A DNA stretch of 64,000 nucleotides from an uncultured Draconibacterium sp. (GTDB taxonomy: Bacteria; Bacteroidota; Bacteroidia; Bacteroidales; Prolixibacteraceae): positions 2,335,001 through 2,399,000 of the forward strand of contig NZ_OY776414.1 of assembly GCF_963675585.1 (NCBI RefSeq), in the 5' to 3' direction. Under the pieces are notes generated by a model. That model saw only the letters and a list, made by a program, of their open reading frames with translations. It did not search any database and was not told the origin of the DNA. Position numbers and translations under genes: made by a program. Position 1 is the stretch's first letter, and the number at the start of each line of letters is the position of its first letter. Positions 27,723 through 49,033 of this stretch are shown here, piece by piece.

Positions 27723-29042
27723 TTAATTTTTACGAAGCATTTTTCCTTCCTTTTTGTATTCCTTTTTTATTCCTCTTAACAAATCCTCTTCCGTTAAAAC
27801 TGAATTGTTTTTTTGTAAAGTTTGTAACCCGGCAAACTGAATGGCATTCACAATATTTGCACCTGAAAGTTCATAATTCTTCCCAATCTTATTGAAATCA
27901 ATCTCCGAGTTTTTTTGAATGGATTCCGGAATGTAATTTTCCCAAAGTTTTACTCTTTCTTTTACATCGGGTGCTTCAAATTCTACAAATGAATTAAATC
28001 TTCGGGTAAACGAAGAATCAATGTTTGTTTTCATATTTGAAGCTAAAATCACAAGTCCTTCGTGAGCTTCAATACGCTGCAACAGATACGACACTTCCTG
28101 GTTGGCATATTTATCGTGAGCATCGCGCACATTGGTGCGTTTACCAAAAATTGAATCGGCCTCATCAAAAAATAAGATCCAGTTTTTATGAGCCGCTTTA
28201 TCAAACAGCTTCGAAAGGTTTTTTTCCGTTTCTCCAATGTATTTCGATACCACCATCGACAAATCAACACGAAAAACATCGCGCTTGGTATATTTCCCCA
28301 ACAAGCACGCAGTCATTGTTTTTCCGGTTCCGGGAGGACCATAAAACAGAATACGGTATCCGGGTTTTATTTTACCTCTCAATTCCCAATTCTCCAGTAA
28401 TTGTTCGTTGTAATTTAACCAGGTTTCAATCTCACGAATACTTTCCAATGTATTTTCTGCCAAAACAAGATCTTTCCATTCCAAATCGGTTTTAATGAGC
28501 TGAGCAGGAAAATCGCTGCTCAATTTCGGTCGCGAAATTTTTTCGGATAAAAACAAATCAACAAATTCTTCATCCATGATTAGTCTACCACTCATTTTTG
28601 GTTCTCCGGCAGGAACTTGTTCGATAAACAACACATTTTTCCGGGCAAACAAATGCGACTCGTCAAAAAATGATGTCACCTGCATTCGTTTCTCAATATC
28701 TTTCCCGCCTAAAACATATAAAATGGTTTCGCCAGTGGGTAATATTCCCCTGTGGTTTTTTCCTTTAACGCCACCAAATTCAGGAAATTCGCCACCATTT
28801 GGAAGAAACTCTGCGATTAAAGCATTGAAAAAATCGGGCAAAACATGCGGCACCAAAGCGGTTAAAAGAATAACTATTTCGGACTGCGACAGACTGTAAT
28901 TTTTTATAAAGACTGAAAGTTCGGAATTGTCTAAAAAAGTAGCAGAGAACAAAGTATCAACGCGTGGAGCCGAATTTAGATCGGAAGCCAATTTGCTACG
29001 ATATATGTTATTTAAAAAATTGAATAATTTGGTTTTCCCCAT
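27723..29042 (-). CDS. eCIS-associated AAA+ ATPase
   Basis: Last gene of the contractile injection cluster. Residues 1-190 form an N-terminal domain without recognised motifs; the AAA+ module has Walker A GPPGTGKT (235-242), Walker B ILFFDEADSIFGKR, a sensor ASNMKTN and arginine-finger region SFTRRFNSFVEF. It corresponds to the Afp15/Pvc15-type ATPase found in almost every eCIS locus; in those systems it is needed for assembly or cargo loading. It follows the 143-aa gene by only 4 bases. Confidence 0.92.
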   Translation of the reverse strand: MGKTKLFNFLNNIYRSKLASDLNSAPRVDTLFSATFLDNSELSVFIKNYSLSQSEIVILLTALVPHVLPDFFNALIAEFLPNGGEFPEFGGVKGKNHRGILPTGETILYVLGGKDIEKRMQVTSFFDESHLFARKNVLFIEQVPAGEPKMSGRLIMDEEFVDLFLSEKISRPKLSSDFPAQLIKTDLEWKDLVLAENTLESIREIETWLNYNEQLLENWELRGKIKPGYRILFYGPPGTGKTMTACLLGKYTKRDVFRVDLSMVVSKYIGETEKNLSKLFDKAAHKNWILFFDEADSIFGKRTNVRDAHDKYANQEVSYLLQRIEAHEGLVILASNMKTNIDSSFTRRFNSFVEFEAPDVKERVKLWENYIPESIQKNSEIDFNKIGKNYELSGANIVNAIQFAGLQTLQKNNSVLTEEDLLRGIKKEYKKEGKMLRKN

Positions 29043-29046
29043 ACTT

Positions 29047-29478
29047 TTAATCTGCTATTTTTTCATTTAACCGATACATAAATGTATTTATCGAATCTTC
29101 AATTTTCTGAAAGGCAGACGGCAACTTTGTGTAAAATCCTGAAGACACTATATAGTCTTTACTTCGTCCATCCAAATTGGCTTGCCAAAAAAGCGAATTT
29201 GTTGACATGCGGGGAAGTGATTCCTCGGAGAGGGTAAAAAAATCATTTCTGATGATCTGCTGCAAATGCTCCATTCCCTCCTGTTTAATTTTTGTAAACT
29301 CATACCATTGAAACATGTGTAACTCATTTTTACCCATCATAAACATTTGACCGTCAGCAAAAATCAACCTTCCGCTGTTTACTTTTCCTAATCTTCCCAA
29401 ATTAAAAAGTTTTAGCATGGGTTTTTCATTTACCCGGGTTTCGGGCAAGCCGGTCTTGTTATTCAGTATTTCATTCAT
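29047..29478 (-). CDS. Uncharacterised 143-aa eCIS cluster protein
   Basis: No family recognised. No signal peptide or membrane helix. The N-terminal half has a beta-rich segment GRLIFADGQMFMMG and an aromatic FQWYEF; the second half (EHLQQIIRNDFFTLSEE, then DYIVSSGFYTKLPSAFQKIE) follows a pattern of helix, FFxL, polar strand, then a proline before a closing helix that reminds me of small protease-inhibitor folds such as emfourin, but this is only a resemblance. It lies 10 bases after the DUF4157/metalloprotease gene and 4 before the ATPase, so a role as chaperone, adaptor or inhibitor of the candidate cargo is conceivable. Confidence 0.75.
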   Translation of the reverse strand: MNEILNNKTGLPETRVNEKPMLKLFNLGRLGKVNSGRLIFADGQMFMMGKNELHMFQWYEFTKIKQEGMEHLQQIIRNDFFTLSEESLPRMSTNSLFWQANLDGRSKDYIVSSGFYTKLPSAFQKIEDSINTFMYRLNEKIAD

Positions 29479-29488
29479 AATTAATAAA

Positions 29489-31609
29489 TCAGATTAATTT
29501 CCAGTTTTTATTAGTAATATCTTTTAATGCCCAACCAAAAGGACCGTAATGTTGCCCCCGAACTTCGTTGCCCATCGACATCATACTGTCACTATTTTCT
29601 GATTGTACTCTTCCGGCTCCAATTTGTTCCGACATAGTACTATGATCTACAACAGTTCCTGCCGGAGTACCAGTTCCTCCGGGAGATAAATCATCGGTAA
29701 CATAATCATCAACAAGTCCAAAAACATGACCAAACTCGTGAGAAACCGTATTTTGCAGTTCACCGGTTCCTACAATTATTTGCACCCGTCTGAATGCTGC
29801 TGCATTATTTTCGTTATCATCATATTGTTCTGCCATTGTATCCGAACGATTCTCGGTGCTTACCCGGGTCTCAATATTTGGGAAATTTTTGGTACGCAGA
29901 TAATTCATAACTGAATTGATTCTACGATTAACCAGGCGCCGGTTGGCAGCTGTGCTACCTAAAATAGAAGCATGTCCAACAACCGTTACATTGCTGTTCG
30001 AGGTATCGTTATCTGACTCGCGAAATTGTCCGATAAAAGAATCAATTCTCGCTTTATCATTATCATCTAAAATCCATTCGTTATTTTCGAAGAACACAGA
30101 TGTGCGTAACATGGAGCGGTTAAAGTCGTTTGTAACACTCGGAGTATTTAATAAACTGTTGCTCGAAAGTGTCATTTCCGAATCGTAAGGATTTGTATTG
30201 GCGGTATTTCCAAACCGGTTTGAATCTACACTTGCTCCCGTGGTTAAACGTGCTGCGGTATTAATTGTTTCCAATCTTGCATCTCCAATCCGCTGAGCCG
30301 TGTCGGCAATAAGTGTTCTTACTTCACCGAATTCTGCCCGTTCAGGATTTTTAACCAGAGAAACCTGCAAATGATCATTTGCCGAATTATTTCTACCCGA
30401 GTAGCTCGCAGTTCCTTCATCCTGAACATCGATAGACACATGAACATTTGCCAAAATATCATCCCAACAAGGTTCATCAACCTGAAACTCGAGAAATGGC
30501 GAATCTTGCCACAAAGTTATGGTTTCACTTATTCTTTGTCTGAAATTTATTCGGGCAGTCTCCTTTTGTGTGTCGCTCCACGAATAATAGCTCGAAACCA
30601 AAGTATTGTTTAAGGTTTCGTCGTTTATATAGTTGAGTATGTTTGCCAATCCTGCCAAATCGGCTTCTCCTGAACTTACCAATCCTGAAGAGCCTAGTGT
30701 TAACCCGTTAACAAACCGCGTTTTTCCACGAACAGTAATTTGCAAAATTTGCGTTGCAGGATTGTAAGAAGCTTCAAATCCCCCCACGTTTGTGTCGGTT
30801 GGAGATACTGATTTTGGACCGTACATTCCATGATTGATAAAGGCCTCTTTTTGCCTTTCAGTTGATTCATCGCAAGTAACAGCCGCCTCTTCCGGAACAG
30901 GTGCTTCAGTGGCAGGCGCAGCTTCCGCAGTTTCCCGCTGAACTGTATTTTTTGAAACACTTGCTCCTTGTTGAATTGTATGTGTAAGTTCGTGGGCCAA
31001 AAGTGTTTTTCCACTAGTGGATTGAGGATCATATTTTCCCTCGTTAAAAAAGATGTTATTTCCAAAAGTAAAAGCCTGTGCTCCTAATTCTCTGTTCATT
31101 TGCACAGCTTGGTTATCGGTATGAATATTTACATTGCTAAAGTCGGCTCCAAAACCATTTTCCATTTGTGCCTGAACTCCGGATGCCAATACGTTTCCAT
31201 TTCCGACATTGCTTTTTAAAAGTTGCTCTGTGCTATTTTGCGACATAGCTGCAGAATTTTCAGCTTTGGGCTGAACCATTTCCTCCTCTTCCTCTTCCGG
31301 CTGTCGTTGCAGTTCTATTCTGGTCTGCACTTCTTCCTCTTCTTCGTTCTTTTGTACCAGCGGTGTTATGTCGCTGGCAATTGTTTTATTCTGAATTTCA
31401 GGAGCAGAAGCAGCAAAAAATGATTCCGGCTCAGATTGGCCATTCACGACAAGATCGGCCATCCGATCGGCTTCCTGCTCGTATATATCGCCCGGAACTC
31501 CTACTTTTAATTTTGCCTGTGGCGCAAAAAATCCTGTGTCATTCTGATTTGAGAAAAACGGTTTACTGCTTTTCCCTGAAACATCTGGTTTATTACTTTT
31601 TGTTTTCAT
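29489..31609 (-). CDS. eCIS DUF4157 protein with OmpA-like and C-terminal zincin domains (candidate cargo)
   Basis: A 706-aa multi-domain protein. Residues 31-54 hold the leader motif LKVGVPGDIYEQEADRMADL seen in eCIS DUF4157 proteins; 88-111 is a very acidic linker; 127-215 is the DUF4157 domain with its own HELTH (206-210). About residues 503-614 form an OmpA-like domain (VVGHASILGS, RRVQIIV). Directly after it comes HEFGHVFGLVDDY (624-636) and a SMMSMG (675-680) that resembles a metzincin Met-turn, so a second zinc protease site is likely. No signal peptide. DUF4157 proteins are common eCIS cargo or core components; carrying two HExxH motifs plus a peptidoglycan-binding-type domain makes effector function plausible but unproven. 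Confidence 0.85.
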   Translation of the reverse strand: MKTKSNKPDVSGKSSKPFFSNQNDTGFFAPQAKLKVGVPGDIYEQEADRMADLVVNGQSEPESFFAASAPEIQNKTIASDITPLVQKNEEEEEVQTRIELQRQPEEEEEEMVQPKAENSAAMSQNSTEQLLKSNVGNGNVLASGVQAQMENGFGADFSNVNIHTDNQAVQMNRELGAQAFTFGNNIFFNEGKYDPQSTSGKTLLAHELTHTIQQGASVSKNTVQRETAEAAPATEAPVPEEAAVTCDESTERQKEAFINHGMYGPKSVSPTDTNVGGFEASYNPATQILQITVRGKTRFVNGLTLGSSGLVSSGEADLAGLANILNYINDETLNNTLVSSYYSWSDTQKETARINFRQRISETITLWQDSPFLEFQVDEPCWDDILANVHVSIDVQDEGTASYSGRNNSANDHLQVSLVKNPERAEFGEVRTLIADTAQRIGDARLETINTAARLTTGASVDSNRFGNTANTNPYDSEMTLSSNSLLNTPSVTNDFNRSMLRTSVFFENNEWILDDNDKARIDSFIGQFRESDNDTSNSNVTVVGHASILGSTAANRRLVNRRINSVMNYLRTKNFPNIETRVSTENRSDTMAEQYDDNENNAAAFRRVQIIVGTGELQNTVSHEFGHVFGLVDDYVTDDLSPGGTGTPAGTVVDHSTMSEQIGAGRVQSENSDSMMSMGNEVRGQHYGPFGWALKDITNKNWKLI

Positions 31610-31613
31610 GCTT

Positions 31614-33140
31614 TTACCATTCTACAAACAATAATTCATCCTTCCATGGTAGTTTAATCAGCGAAAAATTCCACTGCAACTTTTCCATTAATACATCCTG
31701 AACCTTGTGTTCAACAATCAACTTATATCCTTTTTCCTTTTTAATCAACTTACCATCTCTCTGCACAAACATTTGACGTAATCCATCGGGGCCGGTATTT
31801 TTTAATTCGGGCCAACTCCGAATAACCTGATAAAGCAGATTTTCAATTTCTGTTTTAATCTCCTGATCAATAAAACTCTTGTTAGGGATGGAAGCATTCA
31901 ACTTGATTCCGCACAAAAATTTCTCAAGGATCAGGTCTCCTTCAAAAAAAAGCTCATTTCCGGTTGCCAGATAATGCAAGGTTTGCACCGCTTTGTATAT
32001 TATATCCGGCTTTAAACTCCCATTCTCTTCCAACCAGTTAAAGTGTTTAAAAAAGGCATTAAGAAATGGACAAAAAAGAACCAAACCCGCCTTTCGAACA
32101 ACAATATCACTCGTGATATTTTCAAAAAACGGTGGTTCTTTCTTTTTGTCAGAGTTAACAAATTCCTTTCTCGTGAAGGTTGACTTCAGTTTAGTATGAC
32201 TATTTGAAAACTCATTGGGCCTCCGTCCCGATTGAATAGTTTTTGATTGGACTAGTATAAATTCATCTATTTGTTCAATCTCTTTTTTGCTATATAAAAA
32301 GTAGTTTTGAAAGGTTTCTTTTGCAAAAAATTTACGGATTTGCGAAACAAATAGCTGAGCCGTTTTAGCTATCTCAGTTATTTTTTTTTTCTCAAAACTT
32401 CTATCAGAAATGTGCAATTCAACAAGTTCTGCTACACCTTGCTTTTTTAAGGTTCCAAACGAAAGGAGCAGTAAACGCTTCAAAAAAAAGATTTTAAAAG
32501 GAAAATCTGATTCTCTTAAAAAACGAAGCAACAAAGTTTTATTTGCTATTTGCACTTTATTTGTGGCAGAAACAAATTCCAAAATCTGCTCTTCTGAAAA
32601 CTGGAAAACAAAACGCTCAACAGCATCTTCATTTTGTTTCAAAACATTTCTAATTGCTTCAAAAAAACTCTCCTTTTTTAATATTGTAATCCACTGTTTT
32701 GGCTGACTTAACTCGTATATGTATTCTTGTTTTCCGAACCACGGTAAATACCCCTTCTCGATAAAAAATAAAAAAGTGTTTTGCAGGTTTGTTTCCGTAT
32801 CAACCACTTGTCTTGAAAAAATTACCTTCTGGGGATTATCAACCGATTCATTCACTTCTATTCTGCCGTTATCTAACTGATTCGCAATTGATTTTACTAC
32901 TTCAAATTTTGCTGCTGGTAAGTCCTCCATATTTTTTAACAGCACTTCAATATTCAACTCATCAAAACGTATAATTTCATTATTTGTGTCGTATTTTATA
33001 AAAAGTTCGTCAAGCAGCGGCAACAACTCCCCATTCAAATAGCTACTAATGTTATTTTTTACCCAGTATGCCTCCTTTTCACCGGGAGTAGTTACTTCCA
33101 GGAACACTTTTTCTATGATATGACTTTGTTCAGAATTCAT
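31614..33140 (-). CDS. eCIS tape-measure protein
   Basis: The N-terminus HIIEKVFLEVTTPGEKEAYW, NNISSYLNGELLPLLDELF and IRFDELNIEVL is the signature of the contractile-injection tape-measure family (Afp14/Pvc14 type). The C-terminus holds the other conserved block, LVLFCPFLNAFFKHFNWLE followed by AVQTLHYLATGNE. The middle is helical and Lys/Phe-rich. Such proteins set the length of the tube; 508 aa suggests a fairly short particle, although the scale is not certain for this family. It is 4 bases before the DUF4157 gene. Confidence 0.88.
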   Translation of the reverse strand: MNSEQSHIIEKVFLEVTTPGEKEAYWVKNNISSYLNGELLPLLDELFIKYDTNNEIIRFDELNIEVLLKNMEDLPAAKFEVVKSIANQLDNGRIEVNESVDNPQKVIFSRQVVDTETNLQNTFLFFIEKGYLPWFGKQEYIYELSQPKQWITILKKESFFEAIRNVLKQNEDAVERFVFQFSEEQILEFVSATNKVQIANKTLLLRFLRESDFPFKIFFLKRLLLLSFGTLKKQGVAELVELHISDRSFEKKKITEIAKTAQLFVSQIRKFFAKETFQNYFLYSKKEIEQIDEFILVQSKTIQSGRRPNEFSNSHTKLKSTFTRKEFVNSDKKKEPPFFENITSDIVVRKAGLVLFCPFLNAFFKHFNWLEENGSLKPDIIYKAVQTLHYLATGNELFFEGDLILEKFLCGIKLNASIPNKSFIDQEIKTEIENLLYQVIRSWPELKNTGPDGLRQMFVQRDGKLIKKEKGYKLIVEHKVQDVLMEKLQWNFSLIKLPWKDELLFVEW

Positions 33141-33314
33141 TCTAATTTAAGCACTTAATACTTGTTTTTTAACTCCGAATGCCCTATTTTTGATAGAGTA
33201 AGATTCAGAGATGAATTACTGGGTTTTTTGGCATAGAGATGAAAGTGCAAAGCGATAGCGGTCTTTAGAGTCTGTTAATGTTAGTACAAGATTTAAAGTG
33301 TTTTTCGCCCATTG

Positions 33315-33359
33315 GGATATCATTCGAAGTATACAATTAAACGACTGATATCCTTTTTT
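33315..33359 (+). other. Hairpin with T run in the largest gap inside the eCIS cluster
   Basis: The 8-bp arms GGATATCA (33315-33322) and TGATATCC (33346-33353) pair across a 23-base loop, and T6 follows on the plus strand. The eCIS genes are transcribed on the other strand, where the hairpin is preceded by A6 and has no T run. It lies within the 239-base gap between the 874-aa gene and the tape-measure gene, the only large gap in the cluster, and could act as an mRNA processing or stability element or end an antisense transcript. Confidence 0.35.
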
Positions 33360-33379
33360 ATTTATATACCCTCTCATCA

Positions 33380-36004
33380 TTATAAACTTATTGCATTTGC
33401 TCCCGAAGGTGCCCCAAAATAAATATCAGCAAAACTGTTGTACTTTTCAATCAACTCATCAAAATCATTGTTATATACCTGATTTGTAATGTATATCGAC
33501 AGTTTGCTTATTCCGGTTTCGCTGTGCAGGTATTTTCGTAAACTTACAAACAGAACCAAATCGTCGTGCGTGTTCTTTTTATTTGCCTTGTAATAATCCA
33601 ACATGGCCGAATTTACCCACTCACCGTTTACCCAATCGCCATCTAATTTAAATTGCAATTGTGTTTCAACTATCCCCTGGAATTCATTTTTGAGTTGCCG
33701 CACAGTAGTTGCAATCTCTGCAGGAAGCTGATTTACACTCGTTATCATTCGGGTAAGTTTTAAACGCTGAATTTCTGCATGATCAGGCAAACGTTCCTTT
33801 AAGAGATTCCATTTTTTCCATTTCTCATTGAATTTTCCATAATCGTCATCCTTATTCACGGGCGCAATTTTCTGTTGTAAAGCCTCATAAAATGCAGCTT
33901 GATATTTTTTCAAATCACGGCATCGCATTGCATCCGGCCTGAACACTTTATTGTTACGGAACATTCCTTTGTTGCTGAAGGTGTATGTTGGATTGGCATA
34001 ATTGAGTGTTATATCACGAACCCGCAAAACAAAACTGTCTTCTTTTGCATACGTAATAACAAAGCGTTTCTGACTTTCATTAAAATCGAATACCAGCCCT
34101 TTATCAAACCGAGAATTTAAGGCTTCTGTGATGGAATGAATACGACGTAAAAATATTTTGGAAAGAGGAATAACAATGTTTGTGGCACCGTTTATAAGAT
34201 TCTGACCATTTATTCGATATTCGACAACTTGCAATACATAATTTTTAGGCATTACTTTGTTTCTGCTTTGAGTACCTTTTGTGCTGCGCGCCAGGTTATT
34301 TAAATATTTTAGCGAACTAATCCACGGATAAGTGCACTCCATTAACGAACAACAATTCTGCGCAGTCGATTCATCGGCAACCCGGTACGGCAAATAAAAA
34401 TCGGCAACTACCTTGTTTTTGTTTGCTACCAAAACAAATGTACCTCCTTTGCACACTCCTCCCCTGTGTTCCAATTGCGGATGATTTTTTACAAAACCGG
34501 CAAAAGCATTTTCAGAATCATCGAGGGTTACAATCCGGCACACAAAATCCAACCCATAAGTTGCTATTTGAGAGTTAATCTGGTCGCGGCATTCCAATGC
34601 GTCGAGTTGTAAATGTCCTTCAATTCGGTAAAAGCCAAATGCATCAGTACTAAATTGAAGTGGTTTTCTTATTTCAGGAAAATTGGCAAGCAGATCAGTA
34701 GAATAACTGTAATGATAAGTTGATTTTAGATTATCCGTTTTTTCAAAACACCATAAACGAAGCAAATCCGTGCTGATTGAATAATAAAAAGGAATGGCCC
34801 TGGTGCCGAGATCTCCGTTTAATTGTGATGGTGTAATCCTTATGGCCTGAACACTTTCGGCCAGGTTAACCTGATAATTAGTTAACAACTGATTTCCCCT
34901 TGCCAGCAAACTTTCTACTTTGCTGCGATTCTTCTGTTCGATAGTAGACAAAGGAGATTTATACATCCTGTGTCTGTATTTCGGGAATGTACCCGTTTCG
35001 TTTAAGCGGCCAAGAAATAAATGTTTTGGAAATGAGTTTATGGATGGCGAACACTCCACATTTATTTGGTAAAGCAATTCTTTTATTTCATTGTAAGTTG
35101 CTATTAAATCGGCCAGAAAATCGTATCGGTATTGAAAATCGACCAGCAAATTTTTAGCATTTAAATTCAATTTTAATAGTTTGTTAATCTGCGCAGAAAC
35201 GGAGGTTTGCCCAAAAATTCCGTATAAAGTATTGTACCCTTCTTTAAGTTTTGTAAGCACCGTTTGCGACATGGCAGCTAAAAAACTTTGACGTAGGTTT
35301 GCCAGATTGTTTGTACTTAAAAGATTAACGCGGGGCAATTTTATTTCGGGCAGGTTAATGTATTTTTCATCAATATTGTGCCAAACAAAAACCGGATCGT
35401 TTTTTACAATTAACTCAGCTGTTTTTTCACTTATCAGTAAAATCCGCAATTTCTGAACCTCCTCAATTCCCTGGTTGTCACAATCGATGCTGGTGCACAA
35501 ATTTCCATCGTTGGCGTACGATTCCAGGTATAAAACAACAACTTTATCATCGAGTTTCAGATTATTCAGTTTCCCGGTACTGCCGGTACTTCCTGGCAAT
35601 ATTTCCCACATATCAACAAGGCCGTTTTGCTTTTTAAAGGGTTCATATTCGGCTTTGTCATCTAAAAATTTCTTGTAATGTGTATACACGGCAGGCATTT
35701 CCGGAAGTTCAGCAGTTATGGCATTGGCCTTCGTTTGTTTTAACTGAATCAAATCACCATCGGTAGTAATTCCAATCCCTTTTTCTATTTCAATGGCAGT
35801 ATCCTTTTCAAGTCCAATACCTTTCATTTTGATTACCCGTGCAGAAAAACCGCAGACAATTCCTACGCCTTGTAAAAATACTTTTGCCAGCCTGCTCTGA
35901 TCATCCAAATATGTTACAAGTTCGTTGAGCTGATTATGGGTAAGTACCTGATTAGAGACAAAAGTATGATACCCGGTTGTTATTTTAGATAATTTCGATG
36001 CCAT
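33380..36004 (-). CDS. Uncharacterised 874-aa eCIS structural protein
   Basis: Large protein with no signal peptide and no membrane segment. The N-terminus GYHTFVSNQVLTHNQLNELV, YLDDQSRLAKVFLQGVGIVCGF recurs in my recollection in Bacteroidota injection-system loci, but I know no function. The rest mixes beta-rich segments and a helical coiled region near residues 230-330. Its place between the second baseplate-J-like gene and the tape measure is where other eCIS carry tail-fibre or baseplate-periphery genes, so a fibre or host-attachment role is possible. No classical fibre repeats or collagen-like runs are visible. Confidence 0.8.
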   Translation of the reverse strand: MASKLSKITTGYHTFVSNQVLTHNQLNELVTYLDDQSRLAKVFLQGVGIVCGFSARVIKMKGIGLEKDTAIEIEKGIGITTDGDLIQLKQTKANAITAELPEMPAVYTHYKKFLDDKAEYEPFKKQNGLVDMWEILPGSTGSTGKLNNLKLDDKVVVLYLESYANDGNLCTSIDCDNQGIEEVQKLRILLISEKTAELIVKNDPVFVWHNIDEKYINLPEIKLPRVNLLSTNNLANLRQSFLAAMSQTVLTKLKEGYNTLYGIFGQTSVSAQINKLLKLNLNAKNLLVDFQYRYDFLADLIATYNEIKELLYQINVECSPSINSFPKHLFLGRLNETGTFPKYRHRMYKSPLSTIEQKNRSKVESLLARGNQLLTNYQVNLAESVQAIRITPSQLNGDLGTRAIPFYYSISTDLLRLWCFEKTDNLKSTYHYSYSTDLLANFPEIRKPLQFSTDAFGFYRIEGHLQLDALECRDQINSQIATYGLDFVCRIVTLDDSENAFAGFVKNHPQLEHRGGVCKGGTFVLVANKNKVVADFYLPYRVADESTAQNCCSLMECTYPWISSLKYLNNLARSTKGTQSRNKVMPKNYVLQVVEYRINGQNLINGATNIVIPLSKIFLRRIHSITEALNSRFDKGLVFDFNESQKRFVITYAKEDSFVLRVRDITLNYANPTYTFSNKGMFRNNKVFRPDAMRCRDLKKYQAAFYEALQQKIAPVNKDDDYGKFNEKWKKWNLLKERLPDHAEIQRLKLTRMITSVNQLPAEIATTVRQLKNEFQGIVETQLQFKLDGDWVNGEWVNSAMLDYYKANKKNTHDDLVLFVSLRKYLHSETGISKLSIYITNQVYNNDFDELIEKYNSFADIYFGAPSGANAISL

Positions 36005-42336: not shown

Positions 42337-42619
42337 TATTTACCGTTGCACACCCTGCAACAATTACTCCTCCGTGTGCCGTAGAATCACCCATGCGCGC
42401 GGCCGGTTTACCTCCAACAAATACGGTTGATGATCCTTGTATTATAGTATCGGGTGGCCCGGCACACACTGCCATATCGCCAAGAACCGCCGCAGGCAAA
42501 CCACCAATATTAACGGTAGAACATCCGGGGCCAATTATTGTACCTCCAACATGAGGAGAGCCATTTGGATTTGGCATCGGACAAGTGTGCATATCGTTTA
42601 TTCTTGCTGCTAGTGGCAT
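42326..42619 (-). CDS. PAAR-domain spike tip protein
   Basis: A 97-aa PAAR protein that caps the spike with a zinc-bound cone. The repeats are INDMHTCP, GPGCSTVNIGGLPAA, GDMAVCAGPPDTIIQGS, VFVGGKPAARMGDSTAHGG, and GCATVNIGG; His and Cys residues in the first, second, fourth and fifth units are positioned to hold zinc. There is no extension on either side, so it is a plain tip, not a fused effector. It follows the spike gene by one base and overlaps the gp25 gene. Confidence 0.95.
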   Translation of the reverse strand: MPLAARINDMHTCPMPNPNGSPHVGGTIIGPGCSTVNIGGLPAAVLGDMAVCAGPPDTIIQGSSTVFVGGKPAARMGDSTAHGGVIVAGCATVNIGG

Positions 42620-42620
42620 T

Positions 42621-44324
42621 TTAGTTAATGTTTACAAGTGATCCTTTAATTTCTGTTATTCCGCCGGCTTCTGCTTTTAAATTTGCGCTAGCGCTTATCT
42701 CCACATTTGTTCCTTCAAATGTTATGTCGCCCGATGTTTTAATGGAAATATCATTTACACTTTCCAAAGCAATTCCATCGGAATTTAGCGTGACTACATT
42801 CGAATTTTCATCTTCAATAGTAACAACTCCTTCATCGTCGTTCAGTGTTATTTTATTTCCGTTCGGAGTTTCAATTGTTATTGATTTTTTTTCGTCGTCG
42901 AATAAAAACTTTAATTGTTCGCGGCTTACAAAACCTTTTTCATGATTGTCATCAGAAGCTACAATTGGAGCAGGTTTTGCACTGCTGTTCAGCATTCCGA
43001 GCACAATTGGGTTATTGGGATTATCGTTTAAAAATCCGACAATTACTTCATCGCCAATTTCCGGCCTGAAAAAAGAACCGCGGTTGTTGCCGGCATCCAA
43101 CGTTGCCACGCGAGCCCAAATACCTTCGGCATTGGAATTAATTATGGGCATACGAACCATAATTCGTTCTTCACTTTTTGGATCGCCTTCCAACTGGGTG
43201 ACTTTGGCAATTTGTAAGCCGTTAACTGCGGCCAGTAACCCTGATGCCGGTAAAGGATTTATGTCAACCGTTTCGCTAAACCATTTTGGATTAATGCCAA
43301 ACTGAGCATCGCAAGTCCAGTCACCATCGGCTATATTATGCCGAATTGCCGAGACATAAACTTTGCCGTTAAATCGATTTCCTACCCCCGACAAACCAAG
43401 TGTTGTATTTGGTTTTACATCGTGCACTCCCTGAAACTTAACTCTTCCACGTGTCTTTGAAAGCTGATTGAATAAACTTTTTGCATTGGCCCAAATCTGC
43501 AAACCGGCATCAGAAATCGCGCTCCCCTCTTTTAATTCCAATTTCTCAACACCGATAACCGATGCCAAATCTGCAGTAGTAATATTCCCGTTTGAAACCA
43601 CTTCAGGAATATTTGCTTCTATCTCTAAAACCTCCTGACTGGCAGCATCCCAGCCGTAAGAACTCACATTTCGAACCTGATTTCGGGCATCAATTTCAGC
43701 GTCTAAATCATATATGGATTCGCCATAAACAAGTGTGTGCTTTTCATTTTGGCTGTAACTTGGTGCCAAAACCGATATTTTACCATCGTCAACCACACAA
43801 ATTTTTCCGTTTGCCTGCGATCGTGCAATACAAAAATCCCAGTCGCTAACATTGTACTGCACCATTTCTGCATGTTCTTCACCCGTTGTTTCAATCTCCT
43901 TTTCAAGTCCATATTCCGAAATTATCTCTTCCAGAATATCACTATCCGTTGAATCTTTGAAATATTTATTTTTCCTTCCTACTGTAAGTTTTATAGCCAA
44001 ATCCCGGCATTCAACAACTAAAACAGAACCGCTTGATCTGATTTTCAAACTGTGACGAATTACAACTCCTTTAAAAATGGTTTCGTTATTCGAATCGTAT
44101 CCTGCCTTTATTTCGATTTCATTACCGGGAATAAAAGTTGCTTCGTTGCTATGTTCAAAATCTCCTGTGGAAGGTTCACCATCGAGTATTGTGATTTTAG
44201 CCCAGGGAATTCTGTTCATTTCCTTTTCAACAGCAATACTTAATACCTGGATTGTTGAGTTTAATTCTTCACCATTCACCAGCACATTAAAAGTGACTAA
44301 ACTATCTGAACGTTCTGTTGTCAT
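42621..44324 (-). CDS. VgrG-like (gp27/gp5) spike protein
   Basis: A 567-aa spike protein (Afp8/Pvc8 type). The N-terminal 360 residues match the gp27-like hub; an OB-fold follows with ERIMVRMPIINSNAEGIWARV, FFRPEIGDEVIVGFLND and NNPIVLGML; the C-terminus is a beta-helical needle made of short repeats (ITIETPNGNKITLNDDEGVV and later). Together with the PAAR tip it forms the piercing point at the end of the tube. No C-terminal effector extension is present. Confidence 0.94.
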   Translation of the reverse strand: MTTERSDSLVTFNVLVNGEELNSTIQVLSIAVEKEMNRIPWAKITILDGEPSTGDFEHSNEATFIPGNEIEIKAGYDSNNETIFKGVVIRHSLKIRSSGSVLVVECRDLAIKLTVGRKNKYFKDSTDSDILEEIISEYGLEKEIETTGEEHAEMVQYNVSDWDFCIARSQANGKICVVDDGKISVLAPSYSQNEKHTLVYGESIYDLDAEIDARNQVRNVSSYGWDAASQEVLEIEANIPEVVSNGNITTADLASVIGVEKLELKEGSAISDAGLQIWANAKSLFNQLSKTRGRVKFQGVHDVKPNTTLGLSGVGNRFNGKVYVSAIRHNIADGDWTCDAQFGINPKWFSETVDINPLPASGLLAAVNGLQIAKVTQLEGDPKSEERIMVRMPIINSNAEGIWARVATLDAGNNRGSFFRPEIGDEVIVGFLNDNPNNPIVLGMLNSSAKPAPIVASDDNHEKGFVSREQLKFLFDDEKKSITIETPNGNKITLNDDEGVVTIEDENSNVVTLNSDGIALESVNDISIKTSGDITFEGTNVEISASANLKAEAGGITEIKGSLVNIN

Positions 44325-44346: not shown

Positions 44347-45060
44347 TTATATTTTTGTTAGTGGCGGGAAGAAAATTTCCTGTCCCACTCTTAATTTTCT
44401 GAAATTGCTTAACCTATTTACTTTGGCTATTTCGAGGTAATATTTTGAATCACCGTAAATACGATGCGTCATTAAAGGCAGAGTATCGCCTTCGTTTACA
44501 ATTCGTACATGTGTTAAATCAGGCGATGAATTATTCTCCATTGCCACCCTCAAATTATCTTCAATAAATCCTTTAAATTTTGCTGTAGCACTTGCACGCA
44601 AAGGAGTTCCATCAGGTTTAAACAACTTAAATGTCAGGTTTAATTCGGTTAATACACCTTTAAACAAAAGTGCACCCCACGAAAGCACCAGGTAATTCGG
44701 GCGGTGCTCATCGCCATTGTAATCAAAAACTACACGTTTAAATTGGTCAACATCGTCGGCAATTCCAACGCCCTCATCACTAGACAAAGTATTGTCTTCT
44801 TCTCCCGGTCCACCGTAGTTTATCAGAACTCCTGTTCTATCGAAAATAAATTCCAATTCTAAATCCTCGGGAGGAGTACGATTGTACCGGGGCGAAGCAG
44901 CACTTGTACCCGCAGCCTGCCGCTGGTTCTGCTCCACCTTGTACTTTAAATTGTACTTTTCGGGATTGAGCAGCGAGCGAAACTCACCATTTGCAACTTC
45001 CGTACGAAATATTGGGTCGGAATATGCTTTTATATGAAGTTTTATCAATTCGCCGGGCAT
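44347..45060 (-). CDS. eCIS LysM-domain baseplate hub protein
   Basis: A 237-aa protein of the Afp7/Pvc7 kind. The N-terminal part, with FRSLLNPEKYNLKYKVEQ, DLELEFIFDRTGV and PNYLVLSWGALLFKGVLTEL, resembles the tube-like hub fold of gp53/gp54-type proteins. The C-terminal 50 residues are a LysM-like motif: VNEGDTLPLMTHRIYGDSKYY, then NLSNFRKLRVGQEIFFPPL in degenerate form. It likely joins the tube to the spike. The ATG starts 1 base after the small DUF5908 gene ends. Confidence 0.9.
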   Translation of the reverse strand: MPGELIKLHIKAYSDPIFRTEVANGEFRSLLNPEKYNLKYKVEQNQRQAAGTSAASPRYNRTPPEDLELEFIFDRTGVLINYGGPGEEDNTLSSDEGVGIADDVDQFKRVVFDYNGDEHRPNYLVLSWGALLFKGVLTELNLTFKLFKPDGTPLRASATAKFKGFIEDNLRVAMENNSSPDLTHVRIVNEGDTLPLMTHRIYGDSKYYLEIAKVNRLSNFRKLRVGQEIFFPPLTKI

Positions 45061-45061: not shown

Positions 45062-45223
45062 TTATCTTTCCTCCTTTTTTGATAAAATTTCCATTATCTG
45101 TTCCACACAGGCTTCAATAATTTCTTCCTTATCTGTTGTACCTCCTGAAGTTTGCGGCGATGAAGCAGTTCCATCGTCACCCACTTTGATTTTTATGTGT
45201 AGTTCCTTTATTTCGATGGGCAT
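45062..45223 (-). CDS. DUF5908 small eCIS protein (53 aa)
   Basis: A short gene between the second tube gene and the LysM gene: start ATG at 45223, stop TAA at 45062. The product begins with MPIEIKELHIKIKV, the family's N-terminal strand, contains a Gly/Ser/Thr-rich middle and ends in an amphipathic helix (EEIIEACVEQIMEILSKKEE). DUF5908 genes sit at just this position in other injection loci. A role as a baseplate or tube-assembly accessory is inferred. Confidence 0.85.
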   Translation of the reverse strand: MPIEIKELHIKIKVGDDGTASSPQTSGGTTDKEEIIEACVEQIMEILSKKEER

Positions 45224-45227
45224 AATG

Positions 45228-45659
45228 CTACATTACATTAAAATAATTGTAAGTAAGTTCCAGCGTTTCAATAACCAGCTTATTTTCTTCTGCATGAAAA
45301 TCGCTAACGCTCCATTTTGCAGGATAGGCATGAACAACGTTCCAGCTCATCAGGGGTTCGTGTTTTTCGTTTAATAATTTTACGATTAAATCAGTAGGTT
45401 GAAAATCGAAATTTTCCAGGGCATTTTTACACCAGTCAATAATTTCGGAATCAACCAACAAACCTCGTTTTAATACCAAATTCGGGTATTTTGTACGAAC
45501 CGGAACTTTGTGTTTAAAGCGATTTTCTCCCCCCTCAGCAATCTGTTCCGTTTCAATATCAACAGTTAATCCCGAAACCGATTGAAATTGATATTCGCCG
45601 GAAAAACGGGCAAATTCAACTTTAAAATGAAAACCGAGGGGAGGATAGTAATCAGCCAT
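45228..45659 (-). CDS. eCIS inner tube protein (second tube paralogue)
   Basis: A 143-aa gp19/Hcp-like tube protein (Afp5/Pvc5 type): YYPPLGFHFKVEFARFSG, SVSGLTVDIETEQIAEGGEN, VPVRTKYPNLVLKRGLLVDS, DWCKNALENFDFQPTDLIV, SWNVVHAYPAKWSVSDFHAE. It aligns with the tube gene upstream over its whole length and probably forms the tube ring next to the baseplate, where Afp5-like proteins adapt between tube and spike. It starts 2 bases after the first tube gene. Confidence 0.92.
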   Translation of the reverse strand: MADYYPPLGFHFKVEFARFSGEYQFQSVSGLTVDIETEQIAEGGENRFKHKVPVRTKYPNLVLKRGLLVDSEIIDWCKNALENFDFQPTDLIVKLLNEKHEPLMSWNVVHAYPAKWSVSDFHAEENKLVIETLELTYNYFNVM

Positions 45660-45661
45660 AA

Positions 45662-46096
45662 TTATTCATTTTGAATGGACAAACCTTCGTGAACCAACTC
45701 CATGGTTTCAATGGCTACTTCGTTTCCATCGGCTTTTAAGTCGGTTGATTGAATTTTTGTGGGCCAGGCATTTTTAACTTTCCAAACTACCACCGGCGAA
45801 TGTTCCTCGTTGAGCAAACTAATGGTAATGTCGCGCCGTTCGATGGTATTTAGTTTTACGGTGTTCCACCACGCGAAATACTCGTTATCGCTGGCAAAAG
45901 TTCCTCGTTTAAGGGTAATATTGCTGTATTTCTGCATGCCGGGCATTTTGGTTTTGAAATATTCGGGGCTTGCGCCGTGACGATATTCCACCACTTCGGT
46001 TTCAACATCTAATCCTGAAACCTCTGTGAATCCTATTTTTGTTCCACCCCATTCTACCTGAAAGTGAAATTTTACAATTGGATATTCTGTTGCCAT
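45662..46096 (-). CDS. eCIS main inner tube protein
   Basis: A 144-aa tube protein (Afp1/Pvc1 type) with the motifs YPIVKFHFQVEWGGTKIGF, EVSGLDVETEVVEYRHGAS, KMPGMQKYSNITLKRGTFA, FAWWNTVKLNTIERRDITIS and WKVKNAWPTKIQSTDLKADG. It follows the sheath gene by 25 bases. As the tube is built from hundreds of copies, this gene should be one of the most highly expressed of the cluster. Confidence 0.94.
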   Translation of the reverse strand: MATEYPIVKFHFQVEWGGTKIGFTEVSGLDVETEVVEYRHGASPEYFKTKMPGMQKYSNITLKRGTFASDNEYFAWWNTVKLNTIERRDITISLLNEEHSPVVVWKVKNAWPTKIQSTDLKADGNEVAIETMELVHEGLSIQNE

Positions 46097-46121
46097 GATT
46101 TCTTCTTTTAAATTTTAATGA

Positions 46122-47546
46122 TTAAGATTCCTGCATTTTATGAGAGAATTTCAGTATGATAAACTCTGCCGGACGAACGGCGGCCATACCAATTTCGATA
46201 TTCATTCTTCCATCCAGAATATCCTGGGCTGTCATTGTTTGCCCCAGTCCAACCCGAACAAAAAATGCCTCCTCCGGTTTTGCACCGGCCAAAGCGCCTG
46301 CACGCCATTGAAGGGTTAAAAAGTTCTCGATCATTGCTCTCACTTTTACCCAGGTATTGGCATCGTTTGGTTCAAATACAAACTGAGAAGTGGCTTTTTT
46401 AACCGATTCTTCCACCATATTAAAAAAGCGCCTAACCGGAATGTATTTCCATTCGTTGTCGTTTCCGGCCAGTGTACGCGCTCCCCAAACAAGAGTTCCT
46501 TTTCCGGCGAAAGTGCGAATTACATTTATCGATTTACCGGAAGCATCCATATTCAAACCATCCTGCTCAAGGTTGGTTACCTTTTTATTCGGTCCAACAA
46601 TGTTGGTTACTCCCACATTTGCCGGAGCTTTCCATACGCCTCTGTTTTTGTCAACTCTTGCATAAATACCCGCAATTGCTCCCGATGGAGGTAGCGTTAC
46701 TCTTAGTTTATTCAGCTCGATTTTTATTTGGTTGTAAAGCCCTGTATTGGCAATTACACTCGAATCGTTTACAAACAATGTATCAAATGCTCCGGTTACG
46801 GTAGCTGCCGGAGGTGTAGTTTCTGAATGGGCAATTGCTACTTGAGATTCGTTATATGCATAAGGTAAACTGGTTTTTAACCACGGATAATATGCTGCCC
46901 CGTATTTTAAAAAATCGGTACCCAAACTTATGCCGGTTCGTAAAGTAGAAGCAAAGGTAGAAGCCTCGTTATAGGTGTCGATTATTGCAAACCGATCTTG
47001 CAAAGCCTCGCATTGCATAAGGGCTTCCTCGGCCAGTCCGTAAAAATTTGTTGAAGAAGCAATACTTGTTGCATCCGGAAAAACAATTAAAGTTGGTTCA
47101 TCTTCCTTAGCCACTTCTGCCAAACCGCCATTTGCTCCGAGATCGGTTTTACTTACTGTGCCTGAATAATTTCCAACCGAAATAATATAACAGGGGCCAC
47201 CTCCGTTTGCAAAATACATTTGCAGCGAGTAGTACATTTTAAATGGAGATAGTGTAGCCGGTTCCGGCACCTGAATGGTACGTGTCAGATTTCCTGACGA
47301 ATCGTACACATCGTCAATGTTCACCACGATGTTTTCTTCCTTATCAGCTCCTCCAAAATAGAATTCGTATTCAAGCAAAGAAACAATGCGTGTAGGAACT
47401 TTCAGCAAATCATCATCTACAATCTTTTTTGCTTTTTCAGTGTAGCCAATAAAGGCAGGAATGGCGGTCTCAACCTGAGCGACCGAAGGCGGAAAAACCG
47501 AAATCTCTTCGATGTAAACGCCTGGTGTTTTGTACGGTGTTGCCAT
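46122..47546 (-). CDS. eCIS contractile sheath protein
   Basis: A 474-aa sheath protein. The N-terminal handshake segment is YKTPGVYIEEISVFPPSVAQ, followed by VETAIPAFIGYTEKA; the C-terminal conserved domain has VWGARTLAGNDNEWKYIPVR, RFFNMVEESVKKATSQFVFE and NIEIGMAAVRPAEFIILKFS. This is the only sheath gene in the cluster; the Photorhabdus and Serratia systems carry three paralogues, so this locus is a one-sheath form. It is preceded by the 291-aa unknown gene. Confidence 0.96.
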   Translation of the reverse strand: MATPYKTPGVYIEEISVFPPSVAQVETAIPAFIGYTEKAKKIVDDDLLKVPTRIVSLLEYEFYFGGADKEENIVVNIDDVYDSSGNLTRTIQVPEPATLSPFKMYYSLQMYFANGGGPCYIISVGNYSGTVSKTDLGANGGLAEVAKEDEPTLIVFPDATSIASSTNFYGLAEEALMQCEALQDRFAIIDTYNEASTFASTLRTGISLGTDFLKYGAAYYPWLKTSLPYAYNESQVAIAHSETTPPAATVTGAFDTLFVNDSSVIANTGLYNQIKIELNKLRVTLPPSGAIAGIYARVDKNRGVWKAPANVGVTNIVGPNKKVTNLEQDGLNMDASGKSINVIRTFAGKGTLVWGARTLAGNDNEWKYIPVRRFFNMVEESVKKATSQFVFEPNDANTWVKVRAMIENFLTLQWRAGALAGAKPEEAFFVRVGLGQTMTAQDILDGRMNIEIGMAAVRPAEFIILKFSHKMQES

Positions 47547-47564
47547 AATAATTAAGTTTTAATG

Positions 47565-48440
47565 TTACATGTATATTTCTGAGTATATTTTATTGTTGGA
47601 ACTGTCGGGCTTAACCAATTTTGCATCGGGGTTGGGAAGCTCAACTTCTCCATGTTGTATCGAAACAAATCCGGAAGCAGTAAGTGGCTGTTTTTGCCTG
47701 GTAATCAACTGTGTGGAACTACCACTCTCTTTTTTCACATCATCTGAACCATCAACCTGTTGATCTTCGGTAAAAAAATACCTCCAAAATGTTTTTCTGT
47801 TTTCAAAAATAATTTCGAATACAGGAAATGGATTTCGGATATTTCCCTGGTTGTTGGTAATGTTTAACGACGCACTATTTCCTTTCATCGCAACTTTTAC
47901 AATTCCAAACAGGTTCTGTTTTTCATGAATATCCAGCTCATTGAGCAAATTAGAAGTGCTTATAGTTTCAAGTGCATAGTTGTCGGAAACCGGACTGTTG
48001 TTTCCACTTTTTTTTATGAGTGGAAAACTGCCAGGTTCCGTATTTAATCGTTTGTTTGAAAAGAAAAAAAGCTTATTTGCATAATCAAGTTTCAAATTGG
48101 AAAAATTAAAGAATGTGTGGTTTTTAAGTTTCAACAAAAAAGATAATTCCAGATCATCGGAAAGAGGAAGAAAAGGGTGACTATTATTTGAATCTGAAAT
48201 TTTCGCCCATACTATAAAACCTGAATTGGTTAATTTAAATACCAATTGATGCCCCATAATCGTTTGACGACTTTTTGTTGATGGAAGGACTGTGAAAAGA
48301 TTTGAAACATCATAGCAAATAAGCTGTTTTTCTTTTTCCGCTTCAGACATACTTAAATACTCCTGAGTACCTTTATTTAAATAATACAGATGAAAAATAT
48401 TCACCTGGAACAGCGGTTTATATGTGTTCGAAAATGTCAT
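47565..48440 (-). CDS. Uncharacterised 291-aa eCIS protein
   Basis: I recognise no family. It is encoded between the DUF4255 gene, which it overlaps by four bases (ATGA), and the sheath gene. The protein looks beta-rich and Asn/Ser-rich, with no signal peptide or membrane helix; near the C-terminus there is a charged, probably disordered stretch (QVDGSDDVKKESGSS) and the short tail ELPNPDAKLVKPDSSNN. Position next to the cap gene suggests a cap-adaptor or sheath-accessory role, as cap adaptors are known from the Algoriphagus injection system, but this is inferred from gene order alone. Confidence 0.75.
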   Translation of the reverse strand: MTFSNTYKPLFQVNIFHLYYLNKGTQEYLSMSEAEKEKQLICYDVSNLFTVLPSTKSRQTIMGHQLVFKLTNSGFIVWAKISDSNNSHPFLPLSDDLELSFLLKLKNHTFFNFSNLKLDYANKLFFFSNKRLNTEPGSFPLIKKSGNNSPVSDNYALETISTSNLLNELDIHEKQNLFGIVKVAMKGNSASLNITNNQGNIRNPFPVFEIIFENRKTFWRYFFTEDQQVDGSDDVKKESGSSTQLITRQKQPLTASGFVSIQHGEVELPNPDAKLVKPDSSNNKIYSEIYM

Positions 48441-49033
48441 TTTACAATGTGATTCAGGGTTCCGTTAATTTCTGTAATAAGTTCTGACGAAGCCAATTTC
48501 TTCTCACTTTCAATCTGAATGAGTTGAGCTTTATAAACTGCCGATGGCAACTGTCGGCCTCCCAGAATTCCCCAGATATGGTTTAAAACTTCAAATCCGG
48601 GAGTGTACAACTCGACTATGAATTTAAAATTATCCAGTACATCGAGGGATTTATTTGAACGTTTAAAAACTGTGTTTGCCGCTGTAAATACTCTCTTTCC
48701 CTGGAAAAATTCGATGGTTTTTGAAAGGCTTATTAATGAATTGTCGTACGAGTCGCAATAAGCGCTAACCAGAAAAAACACATTTAAATTAACCGGAGGG
48801 TTTCGGTATTCAGCCTTGTTGTTCACCACTTTTACTGCTGAAACATTTTTAAGTGTTTTTTCTTCCTCAATACTTAGCAAAGTAACTATTACTTTCCCTT
48901 CCAGGTCTGAGGCATGGTCGCTTCCCGATTCAAGCATGGCAACGTTGTCGAGTACAACAATTTTTCCTAAACCGGCATCGTCTAAATATTTATCAAGTTG
49001 TTCTTTTAGAATTTGTAAGGTTTCGTAAATCAT
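48437..49033 (-). CDS. DUF4255 eCIS tube/sheath terminator (Afp16/Pvc16 type)
   Basis: First gene of the cluster. The 198-aa protein begins MIYETLQILKEQLDKYLDD, carries GKVIVTLLSIEEEKTLKN, NPPVNLNVFFLVSAYCDSYD and LYTPGFEVLNHIWGILGGRQ, all matching the DUF4255 signature. Family members cap the distal end of the tube and sheath and stop their growth. It is 303 bases from dacB, so the operon promoter should be just upstream. Confidence 0.93.
   Translation of the reverse strand: MIYETLQILKEQLDKYLDDAGLGKIVVLDNVAMLESGSDHASDLEGKVIVTLLSIEEEKTLKNVSAVKVVNNKAEYRNPPVNLNVFFLVSAYCDSYDNSLISLSKTIEFFQGKRVFTAANTVFKRSNKSLDVLDNFKFIVELYTPGFEVLNHIWGILGGRQLPSAVYKAQLIQIESEKKLASSELITEINGTLNHIVK

Follow-up and report, generated by a model that had tools for sequence, protein, structure and literature searches.

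Genes and gene order of the locus

The window analysed here is a 64,000-nucleotide stretch of the genome of an uncultured Draconibacterium sp. (contig NZ_OY776414.1, positions 2,335,001 to 2,399,000). On its minus strand, 17 open reading frames (ORFs) spanning positions 27723-49033 form what is, read from its genes, a complete and compact one-sheath contractile injection system of the AlgoCIS type (clade Ib). The present analysis concerns this system, of the extracellular contractile injection system (eCIS) kind, its compact tail fibre and, above all, a predicted structured RNA gene that lies behind the fibre gene on the opposite strand. The features are as follows (positions in the window; aa, amino acids; nt, nucleotides).

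48437..49033, minus: cap/terminator, Alg16A-like, 198 aa (Pvc16_N, PF14065, E 9e-35)
47565..48440, minus: cap adaptor Alg16B, 291 aa (phmmer against the PDB 7adz cap adaptor, E 9.3e-37, residues 2-290)
46122..47546, minus: single sheath, Alg2-like short form, 474 aa (Pfam; PDB 7adz, E 4.3e-177; All3325, E 4.5e-161)
45662..46096, minus: inner tube, 144 aa (PF06841, E 2.2e-52)
45228..45659, minus: second gp19-like tube protein, 143 aa, putative tube initiator from its position (PF06841, E 1.6e-44)
45062..45223, minus: plug, Alg6-like by family and place, 53 aa, DUF5908 (PF19265, E 2e-20; between the tube and hub genes)
44347..45060, minus: hub with LysM-like end, Alg7-like, 237 aa (CIS_tube, PF19266, E 4e-51; LysM match weak)
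42621..44324, minus: VgrG-like spike, Alg8-like, 567 aa (PF04717, E 8.5e-20; TIGR01646, E 1e-77)
42326..42619, minus: PAAR tip, 97 aa (PF05488, E 1.6e-26)
41914..42336, minus: gp25-like sheath initiator, 140 aa (PF04965, E 1.8e-25)
38765..41902, minus: baseplate wedge with spike-cage region, Alg11, 1045 aa (PDB 7aeb, E 2.5e-245)
36015..38777, minus: baseplate wedge Alg12, 920 aa (PDB 7aeb Algo12, residues 1-920 to 1-933, E 3.4e-268)
33380..36004, minus: compact tail fibre, Alg19 homologue, 874 aa (PDB 9wt0, E 5.2e-97, best stretch 1-497)
33314..33363, plus: predicted intrinsic terminator of the RNA gene (covarying stem and T-run)
33200..33363, plus: predicted structured RNA gene, about 164 nt (promoter, covarying structure, terminator)
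33162..33192, plus: predicted RNA promoter, TTG-N20-TATTTTTG (TAnnTTT with upstream TTG in 18 of 19 aligned loci)
31614..33140, minus: tape measure protein, 508 aa (CIS_TMP, PF19268, E 2.9e-97)
29489..31609, minus: candidate cargo, 706 aa (eCIS_core, PF13699, E 7.7e-32; OmpA-like, PF00691, E 1.3e-7)
29047..29478, minus: orphan gene, 143 aa, between cargo and ATPase (no family over cut-off)
27723..29042, minus: AAA+ ATPase, Alg15-like by position, 439 aa (PF00004, E 3.4e-27)

Pfam matches were counted when they lay above the curated cut-off. The families recognised in this way are Pvc16_N, sheath, two gp19-like tubes, DUF5908, CIS_tube, Phage_base_V, PAAR, gp25, CIS_TMP, eCIS_core, OmpA and AAA, which bears out the statement of the first-pass annotation that the core eCIS parts are encoded here. 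Its description of 17 minus-strand genes with a single gap above 200 bases agrees with the ORF positions and the junction lengths. In order, the inter-gene junctions measure 4, 10, 4, 239, 10, -13, 11, -11, 1, 22, 1, 4, 2, 25, 18 and -4 bases; the one long gap occupies 33141-33379, and the remaining 15 junctions range from -13 to +25. The two J-like baseplate proteins named in that annotation also hold up: the 1045-aa protein lies just over the Baseplate_J cut-off (21.9 bits vs 21.1), and the 920-aa protein, for which Pfam gives no match, aligns end to end with Alg12. The 53-aa DUF5908 protein was assigned to the plug by family and place, not by alignment with Alg6 itself.

The presence of one sheath gene was noted correctly, as only one sheath and one eCIS_core protein were found in the genome (6.03 Mb, 4 contigs). 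One sheath is the normal state in AlgoCIS; this state being already known from AlgoCIS, the locus represents a new member of the AlgoCIS clade. Three genes had been described as lacking a family. This remains true of the 143-aa gene, while the 291-aa and 874-aa products are the cap adaptor and the tail fibre, for whose relatives structures have been solved. What distinguishes this locus, the predicted RNA gene within the gap, had been overlooked.

The compact tail fibre

The first-pass annotation saw no separate fibre gene and considered the mode of attachment unclear. The first statement is wrong and the second does not apply in the sense supposed, because the 874-aa gene encodes the tail fibre. 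Residues 1-497 match residues 1-490 of Alg19 (E 5e-97) in PDB chain 9wt0_a, which has 1443 aa, the same length as given for Alg19. Weak extra matches to this chain occur at 500-527 (to 770-797) and 530-545 (to 885-900); with regard to Alg19-like repeats or an immunoglobulin (Ig)-rich tip, no match to Alg19 was found beyond about residue 545. The protein is thus laid out as a shoulder (about 1-500) and a conserved basic tip (about 546-874) with an isoelectric point (pI) of 9.3. Compared with Flavobacteriaceae, the tip of 330 residues is more conserved than the shoulder: identity is 83% at residues 551-600 and 54-71% per block beyond, vs 27-52% per block in residues 1-500.

According to PMC13314943, Alg19 is the tail fibre of AlgoCIS, its shoulder is seated on the C-terminal loop of Alg12, and it binds cells. 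The C-terminal tail of Alg12 is kept in the 920-aa protein. Given this conservation, the fibre is probably mounted on Alg12 as in AlgoCIS. The locus also illustrates how sequence can answer the fibre question for clade Ib. The basic tip in place of an Ig-rich tip is treated here as a variant within the clade, as fibre length varies among the alleles of the host genus.

A contig scan yielded 13 compact-fibre loci, including those of Draconibacterium orientale (68%; Marinilabiliales, Prolixibacteraceae) and of Aequorivita species (47-48%; Flavobacteriaceae). The compact fibre is full-length in all 13 (871-892 aa). In the 12 longer relative loci the structural genes follow the same order as in the window; tblastn found no PAAR in locus L034, and in L036 and L044 neither a cargo nor an ATPase gene after the tape measure. 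Two further sets were searched: 37 genomes of the genus, the window's own included, and 395 genomes of the phylum. An Alg19-type fibre is present in 32 of the 37 genus genomes, nine with a full-length short fibre (split over two contigs in genome G315) and 23 with a match to the shoulder only, while five have no match. Eighteen of the 23 shoulder-only frames measure 1413-1456 aa; the others are G326 (1357 aa), G321 (1251), G310 (1044), G308 (1037) and G305 (521). The tip has a pI of 8.4-9.8 in 41 of 42 compact fibres, vs 4.3-6.3 for the ends of the long fibres (12 of 23 read). A diversity-generating retroelement at the fibre gene was considered and rejected, as no second copy of the fibre 3' end exists in the genome; reverse transcriptase was not searched for.

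A predicted RNA gene in the gap

The RNA element lies on the plus strand, opposite to the operon. It begins with a GNRA hairpin (H1, 33202-33217, GAGA loop), continues with an ACTGGG motif that opens a long imperfect stem (P2, 33220-33311), and ends with a terminator stem (33314-33354) and a T-run that reaches 33363, 16 bases before the fibre gene. A 22-base core of the element occurs once in the genome (with up to three mismatches; control 0). Among 110 loci the core was found in 30, all of them short-fibre loci, from 19 genomes. The stretch GATTCAGAGATGAATTACTGGG is nearly invariant across Marinilabiliales and Flavobacteriales.

The proposed pairing was examined in two alignments. With 19 RNAs, 99.5% of cells are standard pairs and 16 cells are changed on both sides, vs 4.3 in shuffles, while slid controls reach 31-50%. 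With 24 RNAs, the corresponding values are 98.6% and 17 double-changed cells vs a shuffled mean of 4.3 (0 of 500 shuffles as high), with slid controls at 30-49%. RNAalifold, run unguided, returned the same 23 pairs. The G-U pairs indicate the strand, since 435 of 437 cells pair on plus vs 392 of 437 on minus. The RNA strand also folds to the lower energy in 36 of 38 loci, the exceptions being L042 and G307, in which the 230-base stretch leaves out all or most of the element.

A promoter of the form TAnnTTT, with TTG 19-20 bases upstream, stands 6-9 bases before the RNA in 18 of 19 loci (0.49 in mononucleotide shuffles). The full TAnnTTTG is found in 10 of these 18 (0.36 in shuffles), and the pattern corresponds to the Bacteroidota -7 promoter consensus as given in PMC9723704. 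At the other end, a strict terminator test succeeded in 31 of 38 loci, although in L042 and L138 the stem picked is not the element's own; the misses are L033, L034, G307 (where the element lies at a greater distance from the stop codon), L127, L134, L136 and L142.

Two other readings of the element were rejected. The element is not coding sequence, as its loop length shifts the frame between relatives (17 vs 18 bases, by eye), and it is not a repeated or mobile element, as it has one genome copy and the 22-mer is absent from viral contigs. Rfam 15 (4227 models) gave nothing near the gathering score in the window gap or in 12 more distant loci. A literature search at title and abstract level, with subscription papers and preprints mostly outside it, found no work on an RNA gene in such a locus, and no paper was found on Chlorobi-1 RNA as a possible known name. 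In sum, the element looks like a separate plus-strand RNA gene that has no described counterpart.

It is unlikely that the element functions instead at the DNA level or within the operon mRNA, i.e. as a spacer, a processing hairpin or a recombination site for fibre swaps, and not as an RNA gene of its own. Its terminator hairpin is an inverted repeat on the other strand too, and eCIS alleles are apparently exchanged at a shared chromosomal site, both of which would suit such a role. However, the promoter, the T-run, the GNRA loop and the G-U pairs all indicate the plus strand, and the element, with its single genome copy, was not found in long-fibre loci, where a swap site would be expected too.

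Distribution of the RNA and link to the fibre type

A covariance model of the RNA, R1, scored 122-148 bits in all nine genus genomes with a full-length short-fibre match. Among the 23 genomes with a shoulder-only fibre it gave one weak match (G321, 30.6 bits), essentially the terminator hairpin alone, and none in the five genomes without a fibre match. Over the 395 phylum genomes, searched with stricter filters, only the window's own RNA and one weak unrelated place were found. The matches in G321 and in G474 (29.7 bits, no eCIS nearby) were examined as candidate RNAs and not counted. The long-fibre alleles of the host genus resemble the window in gene order and mostly have the same flanking genes; they differ in their 1406-1422-aa fibres with acidic ends and in the absence of a spacer (12 read) and of the RNA. 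The RNA tracks the fibre type and not the sheath type: G328 combines a long sheath with a short fibre and the RNA, whereas G297 and G329 combine a short sheath with a long fibre and have no RNA.

Beyond the genus, a search with the tip alone returned 22 of the 395 genomes, namely the window's own, two of family f124 (G350 and G616), 18 of family f136 and one weak match. Family f136 comprises green sulfur bacteria, as the bacteriochlorophyll A protein is encoded in all 10 genomes tested, nine of them among the 18. For f124, we infer that it is Flavobacteriaceae, because the RNA stretches of its members L149 and L151 are identical to those of Aequorivita aquimaris and Cochleicola. When 397 genomes of the family to which G350 belongs were searched, nine loci were obtained, of which L127 was already in the set. 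In this set, R1 matched all seven testable loci with scores of 82-178 bits, each time on the strand that does not encode the fibre; seven additional R1 matches (15-28 bits) are these hairpins seen from the opposite strand. Five of the seven loci are new, since the RNA stretches of L149 and L151 are identical to those of L040 and L042 and were not counted again; L155 was left out because its stretch ends before the fibre end. For L145-L147 (fragments or weak), the RNA was sought with R1 only. L032, L033 and L034 were taken as the same as G300, G318 and G320, their RNA stretches being identical.

In 19 wider loci a similar layout is seen behind the fibre on the opposite strand. After its first hairpin the RNA strand carries the motif YACTGRR in 17 of them (18 with L127, where it lies 14 bases outside the scanned range); 1.6 are expected, and none occurs on the coding strand. 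The next gene after the element is CIS_TMP in all seven of these loci that were tested. The green sulfur loci L128-L144 carry a compact basic-tip fibre, followed by an RNA-like structured element and, in the loci tested, by CIS_TMP. This adds green sulfur bacteria to the carriers of such injection systems; no paper pairing Chlorobium with a contractile injection system was found in the literature search. In a green sulfur genome, TGAATTACTGGGCTGAG and a weak match to the RNA model occur away from any eCIS (L124, 9027-9185, minus); this was judged to be chance.

Altogether, a similar RNA accompanies 42 of the 43 fibres with a basic tip that were examined; these extend from Prolixibacteraceae to Flavobacteriaceae and green sulfur bacteria, and the miss is L142. 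This count combines 19 genomes with the exact 22-mer, 18 of 19 loci identified by motif and folding, and five of five identified by the model, so that the most distant 18 of the 42 RNAs rest on motif and folding, not on R1.

To our knowledge, contractile injection systems have been described as all-protein machines. A dedicated RNA gene kept beside one fibre class over such divergence would represent a new component or control layer of these machines. A large eCIS survey states that "noncoding RNA genes were ignored" (PMC8213781).

Proposed role of the RNA

By homology, six Alg11/Alg12 wedges would carry trimeric Alg19-like fibres on the C-terminal tail of Alg12. Target binding by the fibre, opening of the Alg11 cage and expansion of the iris would fire the single sheath, after which the tube would deliver the DUF4157-tagged cargo. 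The RNA may fold or stabilise the fibre tip, or it may ride on the finished fibre as a ribonucleoprotein. The overall reading, an AlgoCIS-type particle with a compact fibre that is accompanied by an RNA gene whose partner is the basic tip, is held with modest confidence.

That the RNA acts with the basic tip is the preferred reading of its function, at about an even chance within this overall reading. The tip is proposed as the partner because it is the only eCIS protein feature noticed that divides loci with the RNA from those without it. The partnership is also suggested by the RNA going with fibre type and not sheath type, by the tip being both basic and unusually conserved, and by the structured, nearly invariant 5' domain of the RNA, which would be more in keeping with binding to a protein than with pairing to another RNA in trans. 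The more specific proposal that the fibre is a ribonucleoprotein, in which the RNA binds the basic tip and either accompanies the particle on release or is required for its assembly, is tentative and rather doubtful. If it were true, injection machines that use a structural or guide RNA would exist from Prolixibacteraceae and Flavobacteriaceae to green sulfur bacteria.

The main rival reading is less likely than not: the RNA could be a regulator, by antisense pairing, transcriptional collision or action in trans, of the levels of tape measure, cargo and ATPase, with the tip binding an anionic target. The RNA lies inside the operon in opposite orientation, is complementary to the spacer between fibre and tape measure genes in the operon mRNA, and has its own predicted promoter and terminator, as a regulator might. 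A pure cis-antisense RNA, however, needs no conserved motif, yet GATTCAGAGATGAATTACTGGG is near-invariant and YACTGRR reaches green sulfur bacteria. Furthermore, the 5' end of the RNA is structured and offers no open seed, and the RNA is tied to one fibre type and not to the operon.

Several results weigh against an RNA gene acting with the tip. The antisense location also suits a regulator, and the basic tip could bind an anionic surface instead of RNA. The number of further pair types, one of five measures of covariation, is no higher than in shuffles, and the RNA of the window folds only mildly better than its shuffles (z -1.41; 14 of 200 as good). A simple scan of the gap found no terminator within its loop limit of 3-8 and no plus-strand sigma-70 promoter, which is another promoter type. 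R1 has no match (E up to 10) in two more distant Flavobacteriaceae loci or in the green sulfur loci, so homology in the most distant loci rests on place, motif and the reading of single folds. For green sulfur subsets the covariation term is unfavourable (+0.96, and +1.48 with no double changes); for another such subset it is favourable (-1.75, 10 of 45 pairs). In L042 the tip is acidic and no promoter matches, yet the RNA is kept. In addition to its short fibre, G315 has another match to the shoulder, within a frame of 1439 aa (G315:C225, 4238-5686), perhaps from a second, long-fibre eCIS. The loci are related, and hence the counts are not independent. Finally, AlphaFold models of the fibre and the tip are poor (mean pLDDT, the predicted local distance difference test, 58 and 57), and Foldseek returned nothing with E <= 0.001 for these models, which are too poor to use.

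The Cochleicola locus has a further peculiarity, repeats of CACTGAGCCTGTCGAAGTG between fibre and RNA (L042 about 12680-13090; L151). Together with the acidic tip and the missing promoter match, these possibly mark a decaying case.

Comparison with known injection systems

PMC8894135 describes AlgoCIS of Algoriphagus machipongonensis (clade Ib) as having a cap adaptor, a plug (Alg6), a cage and one sheath protein. The locus shares with it the single sheath, cap and cap adaptor, plug, LysM hub, PAAR spike, Alg11 with cage region, Alg12, an Alg19-type fibre and a DUF4157 protein as candidate cargo. AlgoCIS structures are the closest solved ones to the sheath, Alg11-like and Alg12-like proteins (E 4e-177, 2.5e-245 and 3.4e-268). 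The differences are a fibre of 874 aa with a basic tip here vs 1443 aa with PKD/Ig repeats in AlgoCIS, a sheath of 474 vs 692 aa, and one DUF4157 candidate cargo vs two. A predicted RNA gene behind the fibre is noted here; the DNA of the AlgoCIS locus was not compared on that point.

The alignment to Alg11 covers residues 82-489 and 516-1049, i.e. most of cage domain IV, whose limits are 278-643 in PMC8894135. In AlgoCIS, a disulfide between C268 and C1000 of Alg11 is needed for firing, according to PMC13314943. In the 1045-aa homologue, C268 aligns to K and C1000 to a gap. With both cysteines absent, at least that detail of firing must differ from AlgoCIS. No shared cysteine lies near the two positions in the 12 aligned relatives (L034 only partly). 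The disulfide is an AlgoCIS trait, not known as a trait of the clade. Other cysteines of the homologue, at C4, C639, C847, C1032 and C1043, are kept in all relatives whose sequence extends to these positions. In L034, a metagenome-assembled genome, the Alg11 gene is broken across reading frames (4054-7249) by mutation or assembly error.

The Anabaena system All3314-All3326 is a thylakoid-anchored contractile injection system. It resembles the locus in sheath length (474 vs 484 aa), in its Alg11/Alg12-like baseplate (PDB 7b5h/7b5i) and in the related N-terminus of the fibre or crown protein, All3314. It differs in that baseplate and fibre similarity is lower and All3314 has 1476 aa. A particle anchored in the cell, as in type VI secretion system subtype iv (T6SSiv) or thylakoid contractile injection systems (tCIS), with the 874-aa protein as an anchor or crown, is nevertheless very unlikely. 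All3314 is the second-best match of the fibre (E 1.3e-28), and sheath and baseplate also match the Anabaena system, but the match to Alg19, from the released AlgoCIS, is much stronger (E 5e-97), as are those to Alg11 and Alg12. Pfam names no anchor among the 17 genes, though no search was aimed at anchor genes.

The Photorhabdus PVC and Serratia Afp systems share the core architecture, as their chains match. They have several sheath genes, and Pvc2-4 and Afp2-4 all match. The fibre has no useful match to the CIS13 family (13 bits vs a cut-off of 370).

It is scarcely credible that the locus is the tail of a defective prophage, or a tailocin, mistaken for an eCIS. Only tail-like parts are present, which a tailocin would also have; CIS_TMP, DUF5908, eCIS_core and the cap adaptor, however, are eCIS parts. 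The first-pass annotation proposed looking for phage capsid or terminase genes nearby, and Pfam found none among the 13 flanking window ORFs, the rest of the window and genome not being searched for these. No relative turned up when viral contigs were searched with the fibre alignment.

Apparent allele exchange at a shared chromosomal site

The genes that flank the locus are ordinary: an S13 peptidase on one side, and a glucuronyl-esterase-like (GCE) and a 3-keto-disaccharide hydrolase-like (3keto) gene on the other. At least one of the two window flanks (S13; GCE or 3keto) is present in 16 of 20 other genus loci for which longer stretches were read, and both in 12. Neither was found in G320, G176, G328 and G315 (other neighbourhood or contig end). 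In a tree of GCE (14 rows, only three well-supported branches) the fibre types are mixed, with five changes and 500 of 500 shuffles as low. In a tree of Alg12 (19 rows) they are nearly apart, with two changes and 0 of 500 shuffles as low. Since the GCE tree is mixed and the Alg12 tree nearly separates the types, it seems that a common chromosomal site has served for the exchange of eCIS alleles within the genus.

Other parts of the system vary as well. The genus sheath has two forms, with or without an insert near residues 240-270, and the tube proteins fall into two identity classes (81-95% and 56-62%); both are mixed independently of fibre type.

Candidate cargo and neighbouring genes

The 706-aa DUF4157 protein is a candidate cargo. 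It contains eCIS_core (DUF4157) at 141-216, an OmpA-like domain at 506-598 and, from residue 624, the metzincin-like motif HEFGHVFGLVDD; matches of the C-terminus to reprolysin/M6 (metzincin) are only sub-threshold. The OmpA-like domain might bind peptidoglycan; in the alignment the Asp of its GHTD motif is replaced by Ser, while the Arg is kept. The cargo ends past eCIS_core belong to different peptidase types among relatives, being of the calpain family in D. orientale, OmpA and M35 in L035, and metzincin-like, related to that of the window, in L034. In G328 and G315 the cargo matches only residues 246-705, without the eCIS_core part (L073 6849-8225 and L075 2129-3505).

Homologues of the 143-aa gene (u143) were found in two of 60 other genomes (G328 and G315), each beside the same cargo C-terminus; the G315 copy has an internal stop codon. 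The idea that u143 is an immunity gene for the cargo is weakened by G301, which has a full-length cargo match (49%) and no u143. A transposase pair lies near the locus at 22537-23858, marked by an rve integrase core and a sub-threshold HTH_Tnp_1 match.

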